The translations under genes and the position numbers were made by a program. A stretch of 58,494 nucleotides of DNA from Armatimonadota bacterium (GTDB lineage Bacteria > Sysuimicrobiota > Sysuimicrobiia > Sysuimicrobiales > Humicultoraceae): NCBI GenBank assembly GCA_031081715.1, contig JAVHMA010000021.1:1-58494 (forward strand), read 5' to 3'. Below are positions 13,750-23,051 of this stretch, piece after piece; the stretch's first letter is position 1; every line of letters starts with the position of its first letter. The notes below the pieces were generated by a model. It saw only the letters and a program-made list of their open reading frames with translations. It made no database searches and had not been told where the DNA came from.

Positions 13750-14607
13750 CTAGACTCTGGGGCCGGCGAGCGTGGCGTCGCGCGCAGGCACCGGGGCCGG
13801 CGGCACGGCCGCGCCGTAGCGGAGCTCAAGGCGGTGGAGGCCGAACGGCGGCTCGGTGAGCTCCTCGACCCGCACCACGGTCGCGGTGCGCGCCGGATCG
13901 CGCCCCCACAACGCCATCGTCACGGCGGTGCCTTCCGGGAAGCCCTGGGGCAGCAGCAGCGTGGCACCGTCGTCGCCGACGTCCTCGGTGATCGCCCAGG
14001 CCCCAACCCCCGCGGCCTCGACGCGGGCGGGCAGATGCACCGCCCGGCGGCCGCCACTGTCGCGTTGCCAGACGCGGGACGCGCTGAACGGCAGGACGTA
14101 GTGGGCCATCACCTCGGCGCTCTGCGCGGGCAACTGATCGAGCTCCAGGCCGAGGCGCAGGCCATCGGGTGTCTCCCGCATGTGCGCGACGCGGCCCTGC
14201 ATGCCGACGCGGTCGTCGAACCACAGGAACTGCATCCAGACACGGGGCGCATCGAAGCGGCCGAGCGGGATGAGCAGCCCGGCGCCGCGGCCAGAGATGT
14301 CCACGAGCGCCCCCACGCCGACGTCACCGTCCTCGGTGGCCCAACGAATCGGGATCGGCGCGGCGACGCGGGGCACCTGCCGGCGTTCGGCGCCGCGCCG
14401 GCCCGCGGGCCGCCAGACCAGCGCGACGTAGGCGATCCCGAGCACCAGGTAGGTCTCGACCACGAGCGCAGCCGCGACCCAGAGGGGCTCAACCCCGACG
14501 CTGGAGAGCACGCGCCAGGTCAGGACGTAGAGCGCGGCGACGGCCGTCGCGCCCAGCAGCGCGCGGGCCACCCGCGCGGGTCCGCGGTCCGGCAGCCGTT
14601 CCGGCAT
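13750..14607 (-). CDS. PilZ-domain membrane protein (orphan c-di-GMP receptor candidate)
   Basis: A 285-residue protein with two hydrophobic helices near residues 16-32 and 40-62, followed by a soluble part starting with ERRQVPRVAAPIPIRW. That motif and the later DISGRGAGLLIP block match the Arg-rich and D/NxSxxG elements of PilZ domains. The order helix-helix-PilZ resembles the end of bacterial cellulose synthase BcsA but with no glycosyltransferase domain. A second, weaker beta-barrel-like part follows (residues about 190-280). ATG follows GGGGAGGT. It may bind c-di-GMP; note that the first Arg pair is spaced as R-x-x-x-R. The partner is unknown. Confidence 0.72.
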   Translation of the reverse strand: MPERLPDRGPARVARALLGATAVAALYVLTWRVLSSVGVEPLWVAAALVVETYLVLGIAYVALVWRPAGRRGAERRQVPRVAAPIPIRWATEDGDVGVGALVDISGRGAGLLIPLGRFDAPRVWMQFLWFDDRVGMQGRVAHMRETPDGLRLGLELDQLPAQSAEVMAHYVLPFSASRVWQRDSGGRRAVHLPARVEAAGVGAWAITEDVGDDGATLLLPQGFPEGTAVTMALWGRDPARTATVVRVEELTEPPFGLHRLELRYGAAVPPAPVPARDATLAGPRV

Positions 14608-14758
14608 GATGACCTCCCCACAACCCCCGCGGCGCCCGCGAGGGCGCACCGACGTTATGCCCCCACGGACGGCGCGGCAGTCCACGGCAGGTCCGCGGCC
14701 GCGAGCCCTCGTATGCAAGGGACCGGGCCTCCACACACCAGCCCGCCGGGAGCGTGCC

Positions 14759-15673
14759 GTGACCGACACCCTGACCTTCGGCATCCTGACGATGCCGAGC
14801 CTCCCCTACCCCAGGCTCGTCGAGCGCTGGCGGCTGATCGAGGACCTGGGGTTCGACAGCATCTGGCTACCCGACCACTTCGTCAACCCGCGCGGGCCGA
14901 AGGACATCTGGTACGAGACCTGGACGCTGCTGGCCGCGATGGCGGGCCTCACGCGGCGCGTGCGCGTCGGGACGCTGGTCACCACCATGACCCTACGCAA
15001 CCCGGCGCTGCTGGCGAAGCAGGCGATGACGGTGGACCACATCTCCGACGGGCGGCTCGTGCTCGGCATCGGCGCGGGCGGCACGCCGCTCGACTACTCG
15101 ATGACCGGCCTGGAGCGCTGGGGCGACGCCGAGCGGTTCGGCCGCTTCCGCGAGTTCGCGGTGCTGCTGGACCGCATGCTCCGTCAGGAGCGAACGACCT
15201 ACGAGGGGCGCTACCACCGCATCGTGGACGCCATGATCAGCCCGCCGCCGATCCAGCGGCCGCGCCCCCCGATCCTCATCGGCGGCAAGAGCCGGACCGC
15301 GCTGCGCCTGACCGCGCGGCTGGGCGACGTTTGGAACACCAACGGCGGCCGCGACCTGCCGCCCGACGAGGCCTTCGCCGTCACACGCGCGCGGGGGGCG
15401 ATGCTGGACGAGTACTGCGCGGCGCGGGGCCGCGACCCCAGGACCGTTGTCCGGTCGTTCATGCTGGGCCAGACGCGCGAGGAGCCGCTGGCATCGCGCC
15501 AGGCGCTGGCCGACTTCGTCGGCCGCTACCGGGCGCTTGGCTTCACCGAGTTCATCCTGTTCTGGCTGCGCGACCCGGACCCCGACTACGCCCTCTACTC
15601 CTGGATCACCGACCGCCGGATGCTCGAGCAGGTCGCGACGGACTGGATCCCGGCGATCCGGCGCGCGGCCTAG
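14759..15673 (+). CDS. LLM-class flavin-dependent oxidoreductase
   Basis: A 304-residue luciferase-like TIM-barrel protein using FMN or F420. Evidence: FGILTMP at strand 1, the LIEDLGFDSIWLPDHF block near residues 25-40, RVGTLVTTMTLRNPALLAKQAMTVDHISDGRLVLGIGAGG near 75-110, and PILIGGKSRTALRLTARLGDVWN near 165-185. The GTG start was chosen because GGGAG lies 8 bases upstream and it sits just before the first beta strand; the longer in-frame ATG would run back into the divergent PilZ start. Likely a monooxygenase or hydride-transfer enzyme on a small organic substrate. Its stop overlaps that of the convergent peptidase gene by 4 bases. Confidence 0.88.
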   Translation: MTDTLTFGILTMPSLPYPRLVERWRLIEDLGFDSIWLPDHFVNPRGPKDIWYETWTLLAAMAGLTRRVRVGTLVTTMTLRNPALLAKQAMTVDHISDGRLVLGIGAGGTPLDYSMTGLERWGDAERFGRFREFAVLLDRMLRQERTTYEGRYHRIVDAMISPPPIQRPRPPILIGGKSRTALRLTARLGDVWNTNGGRDLPPDEAFAVTRARGAMLDEYCAARGRDPRTVVRSFMLGQTREEPLASRQALADFVGRYRALGFTEFILFWLRDPDPDYALYSWITDRRMLEQVATDWIPAIRRAA

Positions 15674-17144: not shown

Positions 17145-18338
17145 TCAGAACACGATCGCCGCCGCGATCCCGACAATCAGGCCCAGCAGGATGACCCAGA
17201 GGTGGGCGGCGAGCGCTTCGAGCGCGGCCCTGGTCCGCGAGACCTGACGCGCGGCCGGCAGGAACGGTGACGGGACCGAGCGGGCGAAGTCCACGTGATA
17301 GTGGAAGGGCGGCGCCGGCGCGCGCGGAACGGCGGTCGGGGCGGATGGGACGGGGGCGGTAGGCGCCGCCGGAATGGAGGGGGCTTCGACGGCCTGGAAC
17401 ACCTCGGCGGCCTGGGACGCCTCGACGGCCGGGGGCACCTCGGAGCCCCTGGCGGTCTCTGCCACCTCCAGCGCCAGCGTTTCCTCCGCGGACCGCTCGA
17501 GGACGGCGCCGTTCCCGGACGGGACGGGTGCCGGGAGCGTCGGCCCCTTGAACGTTGAACCCTCCACCCGCGCGCGCTCCTCGACCTCGACACCCACTCC
17601 TTCCGCCTGGACGGCAGCGGCGGCTTCCTGCTCCCAGGCCGGCGCCGGGAGCGTTCGCTCGGCCGGCGGCGGCTCCACCACGGGTGCCGGTGGCGCCAGG
17701 CGCCGGGCCTCGCGAAACGCGCGCTCGACCAGGTTCACGCTGCGGATCTTCGCCCACAACAGCGAGGGAAACCGGTAGAAGGTCAGGCAGAGCGCCAGAT
17801 CGGCCTCCAGGCTGCCAACGGCGCGCGCGGCGACCTGTCCCCAGCGCGCGCGCCAGTCGCGAAACCGGGCGACCGCCTCGTCCGGGTCGGCCGCCGAGAA
17901 GATCGTGCGCGCCTCGGCCATGCACGCGGCGCGGACGTCCGGGGGCACCTTGCGGGCGAGTGCCAGCAGCCGGTGCGGCACGCTGACCTGGACCGGCACA
18001 TCGGGAAAGACCTCTGCGACCGCGCGCAGCAGCGCCGGATGCCCGTCGCACCCGACCAGGAGCAGCCGCGGCCCGAGCCCGGCCGCGGCCAACTCGCGCA
18101 GCAGGGCGCGCCACGCGGCCTCGTTCTCGCGCGCGGCGACCCGCATACCCAGCGGCTGGGCGCGGCCATCACCGGTGAGGCCGAGCGCGCACAGGGCGAC
18201 ATCTGGCGCGCGCGCCGGCCGGGGCCGGCGCAGACCGTCCAGCAGGAGAAACGCGATATCCCGGTGCGCGACTGGCCAGGGCTCGCCGTCGGGCGCGCCC
18301 GAGACGCTGACCGTCATCGACCCGTCCGGTGTCGCCAC
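17145..18338 (-). CDS. Exapted IS256-type transposase core with C-terminal membrane anchor
   Basis: A 397-residue protein. Residues 25-213 align by eye with the catalytic region of IS256/Mutator transposases: LLLDG (Asp34), VGCDGHPALLRAVAEVFP (Asp98), the VPHRL...LARKVP segment, LTFYRFPSLLWAKIRSVN and NLVERAFREARR (Glu205). Spacing D-64-D-107-E fits the family (about 65 and 108). The N-terminal DNA-binding part (about 130-150 residues) is absent, and the Cys usually found before the VH of RCxVH is replaced (QVSVPH). After residue 213 the transposase tail is replaced by about 125 residues rich in Pro, Ala and Glu, then a conserved-looking segment and a terminal hydrophobic helix (about 379-397), as in tail-anchored proteins. 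No terminal inverted repeats were seen. GTG and an ATG at 18317 are both possible starts. A c-di-GMP-I aptamer ends 21 bases upstream. Confidence 0.8.
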   Translation of the reverse strand: MATPDGSMTVSVSGAPDGEPWPVAHRDIAFLLLDGLRRPRPARAPDVALCALGLTGDGRAQPLGMRVAARENEAAWRALLRELAAAGLGPRLLLVGCDGHPALLRAVAEVFPDVPVQVSVPHRLLALARKVPPDVRAACMAEARTIFSAADPDEAVARFRDWRARWGQVAARAVGSLEADLALCLTFYRFPSLLWAKIRSVNLVERAFREARRLAPPAPVVEPPPAERTLPAPAWEQEAAAAVQAEGVGVEVEERARVEGSTFKGPTLPAPVPSGNGAVLERSAEETLALEVAETARGSEVPPAVEASQAAEVFQAVEAPSIPAAPTAPVPSAPTAVPRAPAPPFHYHVDFARSVPSPFLPAARQVSRTRAALEALAAHLWVILLGLIVGIAAAIVF

Positions 18339-18359
18339 GCGCGGGCTACCGTGCGCGCA

Positions 18360-18435
18360 AACCGGCAGCCCGGCCGACCGATCGGGTCCCGAGGCTTTGC
18401 GTCCCCGGATTCCTCCGGGTTTGCCCTTGACGGTC
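18360..18435 (-). promoter_or_regulatory. Cyclic di-GMP-I (GEMM-I) riboswitch aptamer
   Basis: Read on the minus strand, the element has the GEMM-I signature almost perfectly. It contains GGGCAAACC, a P2 hairpin CGGA-GGAA-TCCG closed by a GNRA tetraloop, the invariant GGGACGCAAAGCC, a P3 region, and the closing GGGCTGCCGG. The outer P1 helix can form between GACCG (18435-18431) and CGGTT (18364-18360). The order and spacing match the Vc2-type aptamer. It ends 21 bases before the GTG of the transposase-derived gene. The linker can form a GCGCG hairpin without a T-run, which favours control of translation over termination, but the expression platform is not certain. Confidence 0.92.
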
Positions 18436-18572: not shown

Positions 18573-19415
18573 CTAGCGGGCGCGTGCCGTCCGGTCGTAG
18601 AGCTTGCGGGCCGTACGCAGGTGCGTGATCGCCTGGGCGCGCCGACCCATCGCGTCGTAGAGGAGGCCCAGGTTGTAGTGGGCATCGGCGAACTCCGGGT
18701 CGCGCTCCAACGCGGTCCTGTACGCCTGGATCGCCTCGGCCCGCCGGCCGCGGTCCTCCAGCAGGACGCCCAGGTTGTAGTGCGGGACCGGGTCACGCGG
18801 CGCGTGGCGGGCCGCGGCGCGGTAGTGGGCCTCGGCCCGAGGGTAGTCACGCGCGTCGTGGTAGAGCCGTCCCAGGTTGACATGGGCCTCGACGTTGGCC
18901 GGTTCGAGCTCCAGGGCCTGGTGGTAGGCCTGCTGGGCCTCCTCGGGCGAGGCGGTCTCGAGCTCCGAGGCAATCTGCAGCCAGTGCGCGGCCGACAATG
19001 GGGCGCCGGCGCGCCGGCTGCCCGCGCGCGCCGCGGGCTTGGCGGCGGCCTTGCGGGCGACCGCATCGGCGTCGAAGTGCAGGAGGAACTGGCCGGAGTC
19101 CGGCTGCCAGCGCGCGGTGCCGTCCCAGGCGACCACGCGCCGGCCGTCGGCGTAGATGGTCACGCTCGCCAGGTTCTGGTCGGCCGGGAGCTGACGGCGC
19201 AGCGAGGTCAGCAGGCGGCGCAGCCGGCGCGGCGGCACGTCGGCGTCGAGCAGGTCCTTGGTCGTGCGGAGAACGAGCAGGTCCTGAAAGGAAAACGCGA
19301 TGCGGCCGCTTGGGCCGCGCGAGGGCGCCACAAAGCCGGCGCGCACCCAGGATCGGATGCGCGCGGCCGGCAGCTCGAGGATTTTCGCCACCTCGGCGGT
19401 GGTGAACGCCGTCAC
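18573..19415 (-). CDS. MerR-type HTH protein with TPR domain
   Basis: A 280-residue protein. Residues 1-70 form a MerR-like winged helix (TTAEVAKILELPAARIRSWVRAGFV; FSFQDLLVLRTTKDLLDADVPPRRLRRLL). A linker of about 90 residues follows, then about three to four tetratricopeptide repeats between 160 and 270 (for example AHVNLGRLYHDARDYPRAE and PHYNLGVLLEDRGRRAEAI). Its GTG start lies in a GTGA overlap with the stop of ku, so it is translationally coupled to it. This suggests a regulator or scaffold for the end-joining locus. Similar MerR-TPR proteins occur in several phyla, but I know of no described role in NHEJ. Confidence 0.8.
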   Translation of the reverse strand: MTAFTTAEVAKILELPAARIRSWVRAGFVAPSRGPSGRIAFSFQDLLVLRTTKDLLDADVPPRRLRRLLTSLRRQLPADQNLASVTIYADGRRVVAWDGTARWQPDSGQFLLHFDADAVARKAAAKPAARAGSRRAGAPLSAAHWLQIASELETASPEEAQQAYHQALELEPANVEAHVNLGRLYHDARDYPRAEAHYRAAARHAPRDPVPHYNLGVLLEDRGRRAEAIQAYRTALERDPEFADAHYNLGLLYDAMGRRAQAITHLRTARKLYDRTARAR

Positions 19416-20275
19416 TTCCTGGCGGCCTGCGCCTTCCGCTGCGGCCGTTCCGCCGGCTCCTCGGCGCGGCGGGCGCGCACGGCGGGTTTCTTCTCCCGCG
19501 GGACGCGCCGGGCCAAACTCTCCTTGAGCGCCTCCATCAGGTCGATCACCTGCGCGCGTTGGGCCTCGGGCGCGGGCGCGGTGATCTCCTTGCCTTCCAC
19601 CTTCATGGTCACCAGGTCGAGCACGCGCAGGCGGTAGTCGTCCTTGTACTGCTCGGGCCGGAACTCCGCGGCCGAGAGCTCGTCGATGAGCCGCAGCGCC
19701 AGGTCGAGCTCCCCGGCCTTGATCTTCGCGTCCTGCCCCTTGTCCACCTCGCCGAAGTCGCGCACCTCGTCGGCGAAGTACATGGTGTGCAGCATCAGTC
19801 CGCCCTGGGCGGGCCGGATGAGCACCAGGCTCTCCTTGCCGCGCATGACGAACTTGGCCAGCGCCACCCGGTCGGTCTTGGCCATCGCGTCGGCGAGCAG
19901 GCGGTAGGCCTTCTCGCCGCCCTTGTCCGGCCCCAGGTAGTACGTCTTCTCGAAGTAAATCGGGTCCACCTTGGGCAGCGGGACGAACTCGGCGATGTCG
20001 ATGATCTTGGACGCCTCGCCCTCGAGCCCCTTGAGCTCCTCGTCGGTGAGGCGCACGTACTGGTCCTTGGTGAACTCATAGCCTTTCACGATATCGCTGC
20101 GCGGGACGACCTCGTTGCACACCGGGCAGACGAGCTGCTGTCGGATGCGGGTCCCGCACTTCGCGTGGAGCTGGTTGAAGCCCACGGCCTCGGAGCTTGC
20201 GGCCACGTACATGCGCACGGGGATGGCCACGAGCCCGAAGGAGATCGTGCCGGATCCGATGGAATGTGGCGGCAT
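19412..20275 (-). CDS. ku: Ku protein (non-homologous end joining)
   Basis: A 287-residue bacterial Ku homodimer subunit that binds DNA double-strand ends and recruits LigD. It begins with the typical IGSGTISFGLVAIPVRMY, followed by FNQLHAKCGTRIRQQLVCPVCNEVVPRSDIVKGYEF with a zinc-like Cys pair, the FVPLPKVDPIYFEKTYYLGPD bridge segment and the VDLMEALKESL C-terminal block, then a Lys/Arg-rich tail. Length is standard. The ATG was chosen over longer starts because it follows GGAGGAGGGA and begins the family's conserved N-terminus. It is divergent from ligD and coupled to the MerR-TPR gene. Confidence 0.96.
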   Translation of the reverse strand: MPPHSIGSGTISFGLVAIPVRMYVAASSEAVGFNQLHAKCGTRIRQQLVCPVCNEVVPRSDIVKGYEFTKDQYVRLTDEELKGLEGEASKIIDIAEFVPLPKVDPIYFEKTYYLGPDKGGEKAYRLLADAMAKTDRVALAKFVMRGKESLVLIRPAQGGLMLHTMYFADEVRDFGEVDKGQDAKIKAGELDLALRLIDELSAAEFRPEQYKDDYRLRVLDLVTMKVEGKEITAPAPEAQRAQVIDLMEALKESLARRVPREKKPAVRARRAEEPAERPQRKAQAARK

Positions 20276-20311
20276 CGCCGATCCCTCCTCCCGCGACCGC
20301 GGGTGCCTTCG

Positions 20312-20341
20312 ACCATACCACGAACGCCGCCGCGGGCTCAA
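20312..20341 (-). promoter_or_regulatory. Candidate sigma-70-type promoter for ku
   Basis: On the minus strand TTGAGC (20341-20336) and TATGGT (20317-20312) are separated by 18 bases, 37 bases upstream of the ku ATG. Each hexamer matches four of six consensus positions. This is a prediction from one site in a GC-rich background. Confidence 0.35.
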
Positions 20342-20387
20342 CAGGAACGTCTCCCGCAGGGGGCACCCGCCGGCCCACGAATTGGGG

Positions 20388-20402
20388 CCGTACGTCGTAC
20401 GG
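20388..20402. promoter_or_regulatory. Palindrome overlapping the ligD ribosome binding region
   Basis: CCGTAC and GTACGG form perfect 6-base arms around GTC, ending in the GGAGG that precedes the ligD GTG start. The size fits an operator for a dimeric regulator such as a MerR-like protein, or a small hairpin masking the ribosome binding site. No second copy was noticed near ku. Confidence 0.35.
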
Positions 20403-20414
20403 AGGCCGCATCTC

Positions 20415-23051
20415 GTGACGACCGCGCACCACGCCCCGCTCGAGACGTACCGGCGCAAGCGCGACCCCGAGCGGACGCCCGAGCCGTTCGGCGGGCCGCC
20501 GCCGTGGGGTGGCAGCCGCTTCGTCGTGCAGAAACACGCGGCGCGGCGGCTCCACTACGACCTGCGTCTGGAGATGGACGGCGTGCTGAAGAGCTGGGCC
20601 GTGCCCAAGGGGCCGTCGTTCGTCCCGGAGGAGAAGCGCCTGGCGGTCCACGTCGAGGACCACCCGGTCGAGTACATCGACTTCGAGGGCACCATCCCCG
20701 AGGGCAACTACGGTGCGGGCGCGGTCATCGTGTGGGACCGGGGCACCTACCGGCCGCTTGGCGACGGCGATCCGCTCGCGGCGCTGGCCCGCGGCCGGCT
20801 GGAGCTCGTCCTCGCGGGCCACAAGATGCGCGGCATCTGGGCTCTGATCCGCACCTCGAGGTCACCGAGAGACTGGCTGCTGTTCCGCAAGGCCCAGCCA
20901 GGCGCGTCCTCCGCCGACCTGACCGCGCGCTACCCGCGGTCGGTGATCTCGGGGATGACGATCGAGGAGATGCGCGACGCCCCGGCCCGGCGCGAGACGC
21001 TGCGCCGGGCGGCGGCGGCCACCGGGGCGCCGGCGCGCGCGGTCGCGCCGGGCGCGCAGGGATTCATGCTCGCCGAGGCGGCGGAGCGCCCGTTCTCCGA
21101 CGACGCCTGGCTGTTCGAAATCAAGTACGACGGCGTGCGCGTGCTCGCCGCGCGCGAGGGCGACCGCGTAGCACTCTACGGCCGCACCCGCACGCGAATC
21201 ACCTCGCGCTACCCCGAGGTAGCGCAGGCGCTGGCGACGCTACCCGCCGGGCACTTTCTGCTCGACGGTGAGATCGTCGCGCTCGACGACGAGGGCAGGC
21301 CGAGCTTTCAGCGACTCCAGGCCCGCATGGGCCTGACCGCGCCGGCCGACGTCGCGCGCGGGGCAGCGGCGCTGCCGGTTGTCGGCGTCTTCTTCGACTG
21401 CCTGGCGCTGGAGGGCTACGACTTGCGGCGGTTTCCGCTCGAGGTGCGCAAGGCCCTGCTCGCCGAGCTCCTCCCGCCGCTGGGGACGGTGCGCTACGCC
21501 GACCACGTGCGCGGGCAGGGCGAGGCCTTCTACGAGGCCGCGAGCGAGCAGCACCTGGAGGGCATCGTAGCCAAGCGCGCCGCCAGCCCCTACGCCGCCG
21601 GCCGGTCGCGCGACTGGATCAAGATCAAGTGCCAGCGCCGGCAGGAGTTCGTGATCGGTGGTTACACCGACCCGCACGGCGCGCGTCGCCGCTTCGGCGC
21701 GCTGCACCTGGGCGTCTACGAGGGCGACCGGCTCGTCTACGTGGCGAAGGTGGGCACGGGATTCGACAAGGCGTCGCTCGACGCGGTGTGGAACGCGCTG
21801 CAACCGCTGCGGCGGCCGACCTCGCCGTTCGACGCCGGCGCGCCGGCGGGCGGGGGCCACCACTGGGTCGAACCGCGCCTGGTCTGCGAGGTGCGGTTCA
21901 GCGAGTGGACGGCCGACGGCGGCATCCGCCACCCCGCGTTCCTGGGCCTGCGCGCCGACAAGGACCCGGCCGGGGTCCGGCGCGAGGCGCCGGAGGTGCA
22001 GGGCGCGGGGACGCAAACGGGCCGCGGGGCGCGCCCGGCCGGAAGCCGGGCACCCGGCCAGGCCGGCGCCCGCGCGACGCGGCCGTCACGCGCGGCGGCC
22101 CCACCCGCCGCCCGCCAGGTCCGGCTGACCAACCTGGACAAGGTCTTCTGGCCAAAGGACGGCTACACCAAGCGCGACCTGATCGCCTACTACGACGCGG
22201 TCTCTCCCTGGCTGCTCCCCTACCTGCGCGACCGGCCGCTCGTCCTCACGCGCTATCCGGACGGCATCGCCGGCAAGTCGTTCTTCCAGAAGGACGCGCC
22301 GGAGTTCACCCCGGCGTGGGTGCGGACGGAGAAGATCTACTCGAAGGAGGCGGAGCGCGACGTCAACCACTTCATCGTGAACGACGCGGAGTCGCTGCGC
22401 TATGTGGCCAACATGGCCACGATCCCGCTGCACGTCTGGAGCGCGCACCTGGGCTCGCTGGAGCGGCCGGACTGGCTGGTCCTCGACCTGGACCCCAAGG
22501 GCGCGCCGTTCGCGCACGTGGTGCGAGTGGCGCGCGCGCTCCACGAGGTCCTCGACGACCTCCGGCTGCCAAACTACGTCAAGACCTCGGGCGGCAGCGG
22601 GCTGCACGTGCTGCTCCCGCTGGGCGCGCGCTACACCCACGAGCAGGCGCGCACCTTCGCACGGCTGCTGGCCCACCTGGCCGTGGAGGCGGAGCCCCAA
22701 GTCGCCACCCTGGCGCGGCCGCTGCACGCCCGCGAGGGCAAGGTGTACGTGGACTACGTCCAGAACGGGCACGGCCGGACCATCGCCGCGCCGTTCTCGC
22801 TGCGGCCGCTGCCCGGCGCGCCGGCGTCGTGCCCGCTGCGCTGGGAGGAGGTCGTGCCCGGGCTCGACCCGCGGGCGTTCACGCTCGTGACGGTGCCGCG
22901 CCGGTTCAAGACGGTGCGCGACCCGCTCCTGCCGGTGCTGCGCGGCGGAATCGACATGGCCGCGGCGATCGCTCGCGTCGAAGCGTGGCTCGGGCGGCCG
23001 GCGCGGCGAGGGCGGGGCGCGCACCGGCGCGGGGCGGGGAGGCGGGCCTGA
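20415..23051 (+). CDS. ligD: Multifunctional DNA ligase D (phosphoesterase-ligase-polymerase)
   Basis: An 878-residue end-joining enzyme. Domain order is 3'-phosphoesterase (about 10-190: RFVVQKHAARRLHYDLRLE, FEGTIPEGNYGAG), ATP-dependent ligase (about 215-530: the nucleotidyl lysine is K237 in FEIKYDGVR, then DGEIVALDD and KIKCQRRQEFVIGGYT), and primase-polymerase (about 566-860: VRLTNLDKVFWP, LVLDLDPKG with the metal aspartates near 690, KTSGGSGLHV). All three active sites look intact. A Pro/Ala/Arg-rich linker near 520-565 joins ligase and polymerase. GTG start chosen for GGAGG 9 bases upstream; longer frames overlap ku. It overlaps the DUF72 gene by one base (TGATG). Confidence 0.96.
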   Translation: MTTAHHAPLETYRRKRDPERTPEPFGGPPPWGGSRFVVQKHAARRLHYDLRLEMDGVLKSWAVPKGPSFVPEEKRLAVHVEDHPVEYIDFEGTIPEGNYGAGAVIVWDRGTYRPLGDGDPLAALARGRLELVLAGHKMRGIWALIRTSRSPRDWLLFRKAQPGASSADLTARYPRSVISGMTIEEMRDAPARRETLRRAAAATGAPARAVAPGAQGFMLAEAAERPFSDDAWLFEIKYDGVRVLAAREGDRVALYGRTRTRITSRYPEVAQALATLPAGHFLLDGEIVALDDEGRPSFQRLQARMGLTAPADVARGAAALPVVGVFFDCLALEGYDLRRFPLEVRKALLAELLPPLGTVRYADHVRGQGEAFYEAASEQHLEGIVAKRAASPYAAGRSRDWIKIKCQRRQEFVIGGYTDPHGARRRFGALHLGVYEGDRLVYVAKVGTGFDKASLDAVWNALQPLRRPTSPFDAGAPAGGGHHWVEPRLVCEVRFSEWTADGGIRHPAFLGLRADKDPAGVRREAPEVQGAGTQTGRGARPAGSRAPGQAGARATRPSRAAAPPAARQVRLTNLDKVFWPKDGYTKRDLIAYYDAVSPWLLPYLRDRPLVLTRYPDGIAGKSFFQKDAPEFTPAWVRTEKIYSKEAERDVNHFIVNDAESLRYVANMATIPLHVWSAHLGSLERPDWLVLDLDPKGAPFAHVVRVARALHEVLDDLRLPNYVKTSGGSGLHVLLPLGARYTHEQARTFARLLAHLAVEAEPQVATLARPLHAREGKVYVDYVQNGHGRTIAAPFSLRPLPGAPASCPLRWEEVVPGLDPRAFTLVTVPRRFKTVRDPLLPVLRGGIDMAAAIARVEAWLGRPARRGRGAHRRGAGRRA

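Follow-up and report, generated by a model that had tools for sequence, protein, structure and literature searches.

A c-di-GMP-I-GGC riboswitch aptamer precedes a probably domesticated, predicted membrane-tethered DDE domain in a family of Sysuimicrobiota

The gene described here lies behind a c-di-GMP-I-GGC riboswitch aptamer and probably encodes a domesticated, membrane-tethered DDE domain that belongs to a c-di-GMP, SigBFG and type IV pilus programme in one family of the uncultured group CSP1-3 (Sysuimicrobiota). The best-supported part of this reading is regulatory and topological, and would describe a DDE fold that a membrane anchor holds facing the cytoplasm and that is produced when c-di-GMP is high and the cell is piliated. 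CSP1-3 is a candidate phylum which also carries the name Sysuimicrobiota (PMC11604079). The window, the whole stretch of 58,494 nucleotides that was analysed, is contig C44 of a 2.98 Mb genome that is 97% complete. The genomes compared appear to be metagenome-assembled, and the family set comprises 11 of them. Four orthologues of the window gene, with a common architecture, are present in three other genera (g3, g4 and g5): L014 in G003, L016 in G005, and L013 and L015, the orthologues of G004 and G002. The window gene, these four and three divergent paralogues make up a headless set of eight. A scan of the genome contigs with A1 returned two records only, those of G003 and G005, and none from outside the family at that sensitivity.

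Table 1. Features of the riboswitch leader and of the transposase-derived gene, in window coordinates
Feature	Position	Strand	Basis or remark
c-di-GMP-I-GGC riboswitch aptamer (RF03167)	18360..18434	-	64.8 bits, gathering cut-off 59
Alternative hairpin, 5' arm CGGGCTGCCG, overlapping the aptamer 3' end	18363..18372	-	Helix of 10 bp, one of them G-U; L014 and L016 have homologous hairpins
Alternative hairpin, 3' arm CGGTAGCCCG	18342..18351	-	No U-tract after it; TTTTT in L014, TTT in L016
Weak Shine-Dalgarno-like GGACGGG ahead of ATG 18317	18321..18327	-	Sequence; putative
Headless IS256-type transposase-derived protein, 390 aa from ATG	17145..18317	-	Alternative start GTG 18338 gives 397 aa
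RNase H-like DDE core with helical insertion domain; D27, D91, E198, H115 (from ATG)	17697..18257	-	Pfam, A2 alignment, AF2 pLDDT about 97, Foldseek ISCth4
Pro/Ala/Glu-rich low-confidence linker	17205..17696	-	165 aa, 16% Pro; pLDDT mostly below 60
C-terminal transmembrane segment HLWVILLGLIVGIAAAIVF (predicted tail anchor)	17148..17204	-	Kyte-Doolittle 2.58; zero residues after it

The aptamer was recovered by cmscan of the whole window with an E-value of 4.5e-13, and is the sole riboswitch found there by the Rfam scan. The GGC-variant model scores above the overlapping relatives from its own clan at the same position. A preliminary description of this DNA had placed a GEMM-I-type aptamer at 18360-18435 of the minus strand, with invariant blocks and a GNRA-capped P2. 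The Infernal check bears this out at 18360-18434; the sequence contains GGGCAAACC and GGGACGCAAAGCC, and P2 is capped by a GGAA (GNRA) loop. The presumed ligand is c-di-GMP, a signal of the surface lifestyle. The aptamer was correctly said to stand upstream of the gene; the distance of 21 bases given to its start counts to GTG 18338, and from the alignment of orthologues the in-frame ATG at 18317 is the likelier start. This ATG is preferred because it gives the same N-terminal length as in L014 (22 residues before FLLLDG in both proteins) and an aptamer-to-ATG distance of 42 nt, close to the 45-49 nt or so of the relatives L014 and L016.

Neither outcome named beforehand as a refutation came about: the covariance score exceeds its threshold, and the pairing recurs in related genomes, where its conservation is partial. 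The aptamer lies upstream of the gene in three genera (the window, L014 and L016; three of the five orthologues) and was not found upstream of L013 or L015, even at an E-value of 0.5. One of these two aptamer-less orthologues belongs to the genus of the aptamer-bearing L014. An aptamer ahead of every orthologue is thus ruled out, and direct riboswitch control is therefore not obligatory.

The open reading frame at 17145-18338 of the minus strand matches the Pfam family Transposase_mut with an E-value of 1.9e-27 and contains the DDE residues, in agreement with the IS256-like catalytic core first claimed for it. The match begins at profile position 183 of 379 (162 in L015) and so covers the catalytic half only; the match to ISCth4 begins at residue 194 of that protein. 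It has been reported that ISCth4 has its active site at D175-D241-E348, its N-terminal domains within residues 1-165 and its insertion domain at 261-325 (PMC7780238). The spacings within the DDE triad are 64 and 107 residues in the window protein, compared with 66 and 107 in ISCth4. In the AlphaFold2 model the high pLDDT extends across the core, the linker is disordered and a C-terminal helix (352-389) is again at high pLDDT. The top Foldseek hits of the core model are chains of the ISCth4 transposase (E-value 4e-11). A fragment of an IS256/Mutator transposase would have become a host protein, with the DDE core and insertion domain kept and the dimerisation, DNA-binding and HTH domains lost.

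The C-terminal half is common to all five orthologues. Their linkers are Pro/Ala/Glu-rich and 144-213 residues long. Each protein has a single transmembrane segment at its extreme C-terminus, in the manner of a C-tail anchor, with the 19-mer of highest hydrophobicity 0-3 residues from the end. These predicted segments favour the membrane-linked function originally proposed. The protein would be tethered to the inner membrane (N-in), the disordered linker and the C-terminal anchor placing the core toward the cytoplasm.

The regulatory setting extends well beyond this gene. The window genome contains 11 c-di-GMP-I-GGC aptamers, six of them above the cut-off. Further ones stand ahead of a SigBFG sigma gene, of HD-GYP and prepilin genes, and of genes for a PilB-like ATPase and an SCP-like protein, the SCP, prepilin and PilB labels being read off the translations without a profile search. 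The pair of aptamer and SigBFG sigma gene is present in 10 of the 11 family genomes, so that an alternative sigma factor is apparently under direct c-di-GMP control. The SigB/SigF/SigG-type sigma gene behind the aptamer occurs at L002 1501-2451 (G000:C41:29077 onward), L024 and L026-L033. Another conserved aptamer target, in four genomes (L034, L036, L038 and L039), is a protein with VGVQSDIQPD / VGFGVQSDLQPD that is perhaps glycoside hydrolase-like. PilZ is the usual c-di-GMP receptor domain, and a PilZ-domain protein (E-value 7.8e-13) is encoded at 13750-14784 of the minus strand of the window, downstream of the transposase-derived gene by about 2.4 kb.

The consensus of SigB-type promoters is GTTTAA-N12-14-GGGTAT. 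A motif which resembles them, G(T/A)CT(A/G)-N15-GGG(C/T)A, whose spacer is exactly 15 nt, is located at most 150 nt upstream of 15 of the 34 evaluable aptamers, where about 0.3 would be expected. Mis-indexed loci at contig edges (L026, L037, L039 and L046) were left out of the promoter counts. The aptamers with this motif include L001, L002, L005, L007 and L008. Seven of the eight headless-transposase genes, the aptamer-less ones included, have G(T/A)CTA-N15-GGG(C/T)A ahead of them (0.0045 expected); the strict motif was not found upstream of the window gene. Each headless gene has the aptamer, the SigB-type promoter or both, and every known member is thereby linked to the c-di-GMP network. 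Within the window genome, GTCTA-N15-GGGYA occurs at 15 sites (G000 sites L103-L117) versus 5 for the reversed control, and these 15 include four aptamer leaders, a PilT-type ATPase, two pilin-like genes and a GAF-HD gene. The SigBFG sigma factor presumably reads the GGG(C/T)A motif. The arrangement points to a feed-forward scheme: c-di-GMP would control a SigB-type sigma factor, and the promoters of that factor would in turn drive more genes that stand behind c-di-GMP riboswitches. The cell-surface link of the preliminary description gains support from this regulation, which type IV pilus genes and HD-GYP genes share.

In the orthologues, the transcript would start at the SigB-type promoter, and in two of the four it would be controlled by the c-di-GMP-I-GGC aptamer in its leader. 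The 3' arm of the aptamer can pair as GGGTTGCC/GGCAACCC in G003 (L014), followed by TTTTTCTTC, and as GGGCTGCC/GGCAGCCC in G005 (L016), followed by TTTCT. As the aptamer and the terminator-like hairpin compete for one strand, the ligand should favour read-through, which suggests ligand-ON control in G003 and G005. By this mechanism c-di-GMP binding would hold the 3' arm within the aptamer and block the overlapping terminator. The hairpin of the window is followed by CGCGTGG; the aptamer is kept there, but neither the promoter motif nor a U-tract is recognisable. The alternative helix was equalled in 230, 1157 and 185 of 3000 shuffles and is not rare at any single locus, for which reason it was rejected as strong statistical evidence. 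Single hairpins are not remarkable by shuffling; the terminator-like reading rests on the recurring position of the hairpin and on the U-tracts. A switch by sequestration of the ribosome-binding site in the window was rejected for want of support from the folding model, in which formation of the aptamer leaves the presumed site unexposed (0.25 free, 0.14 bound).

At the inner membrane the protein may act on or bind nucleic acid in the piliated or surface state. A serious competitor, if somewhat short of an even one, is that the DDE core is only a non-catalytic scaffold, a folded module for interactions in the cytoplasm that is held on a membrane anchor like the HTH domain of RodZ. Consistent with this, a paralogue in G001 (L017 / L077:6352-7725) joins a headless core and a transmembrane segment to a RodZ_C domain (E-value 5e-16). 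All three divergent paralogues lack at least one DDE residue and their frames are still open. Two of them, L020 (G004:C18) and L021 (G002:C28), each carry the SigB-type promoter motif. Among the orthologues, the CxxH cysteine is replaced by serine in four of five. Against the scaffold, none of the five orthologues departs from the DDE residues or from the histidine of the insertion domain, which lie inside the best-conserved blocks (FLLLDGLR, DGHPAL and VE..FR..RR).

DNA cutting has evidence on both sides: the DDE residues and their flanking blocks are invariant in the orthologues, and against it stand the paralogues that have lost DDE residues and the replacement of the CxxH cysteine. Retention of the triad is modest evidence for catalysis, since roughly 45% of the core columns are invariant anyway. 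A bolder reading, of low probability, would make the protein a DDE nuclease or strand-transferase, tethered to the membrane and switched by c-di-GMP. It would work on DNA at the inner membrane while type IV pili are produced, for example on DNA imported through the pilus and ComEC, and so would be a domesticated bacterial transposase in the service of DNA uptake or of life on surfaces. Nine of the 11 family genomes have ComEC. A role in DNA uptake is possible and is singled out by no evidence.

The aptamer might be real and yet serve the M20 peptidase gene that lies downstream, either alongside the transposase-derived gene or in preference to it, as the two are perhaps on a single transcript in the window. 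The M20 gene starts at about 17079, 65 nt past the stop codon, and has a good ribosome-binding site. This target is distinctly unlikely, given that in L014 and L016 aptamer and gene form a unit which converges with yraN and is followed by no M20 gene. On the other side of the window gene, a MerR-HTH and TPR gene stands beside Ku and LigD (18573-20458 minus, 20115-23051 plus). The order LigD-Ku-MerR/TPR is kept in G001 without the gene, so a local origin at this locus was rejected and the location of the gene therefore differs between g1 and g3-g5.

A decayed insertion sequence fragment, which landed behind a riboswitch leader or was fused by chance to a membrane-protein gene and has no selected function, is disfavoured and very unlikely. 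The aptamer is present in only three of the five orthologues, and the window gene, between the MerR/TPR gene and the M20 peptidase, is placed elsewhere than its relatives, both of which would fit decay. Against this, the frames are open in five genomes of four genera, and the C-terminal anchor is common to all. In the three other genera the orthologues adjoin yraN in a trmD-rplS-lepB-yraN stretch, the yraN-side loci of G004 and G002 lying on comM-dprA-topA contigs. No terminal inverted repeats beyond GC-rich noise flank the window gene. In every orthologue pair dS exceeds dN, with dN/dS values of 0.15/0.72 in the closest pair and 0.29-0.36/0.89-0.98 in pairs with the window, and this shows purifying selection on the core. 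The tree sets the eight headless proteins apart from 13 IS256 sequences of the phylum, at a support of 100/100. A single origin of the headless set is not proven by this, as the three paralogues are long branches. Recruitment as a host protein, already claimed in the preliminary description, is well supported by the retained DDE residues, the synteny, the excess of dS over dN and the split in the tree.

A functional IS256-type transposase with a regulatory riboswitch can be virtually dismissed, and an active insertion sequence was rejected: despite the Transposase_mut match and intact DDE residues, the N-terminal domains (1-165 in ISCth4) are missing, the gene is single copy without terminal inverted repeats, a membrane anchor is predicted and the NCBIfam IS256 equivalog model scores 116.2 bits, below its cut-off of 150.

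Domesticated transposases with a host role are rare in bacteria, and in a limited literature search no description came up of one that has a membrane anchor or that a c-di-GMP riboswitch controls. If correct, the domesticated, membrane-tethered DDE domain would be an unexpected new output of c-di-GMP signalling and a concrete, testable protein, with a soluble core and three active-site residues. The aptamer resembles the c-di-GMP-I-GGC riboswitches (RF03167, GEMM-I clan CL00126) in its full-length model match above the gathering score, its conserved core blocks and its leader position, and differs from others in its transposase-derived target and in an expression platform without a recognisable terminator U-tract. 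The protein is similar to the IS256 / Mutator-type ISCth4 TnpA (PDB 6xg8, 6xgw, 6xgx) in its RNase H-like core, helical insertion domain and the histidine of CxxH. Unlike ISCth4, it is without the dimerisation, NDB and HTH domains and without terminal inverted repeats, is single copy, and has an added linker and C-terminal anchor. The likeness to RodZ, a RodZ_C domain behind a transmembrane segment, is confined to the distant G001 paralogue; both the RodZ HTH and RodZ_C are absent from the window protein. In eukaryotes, the FHY3/FAR1 family, domesticated and MULE-derived, are plant transcription factors (PMC13306707). There, as here, a transposase core appears to have been recruited as a host protein, although the window protein, unlike FHY3/FAR1, is bacterial, headless and predicted to be membrane-anchored.
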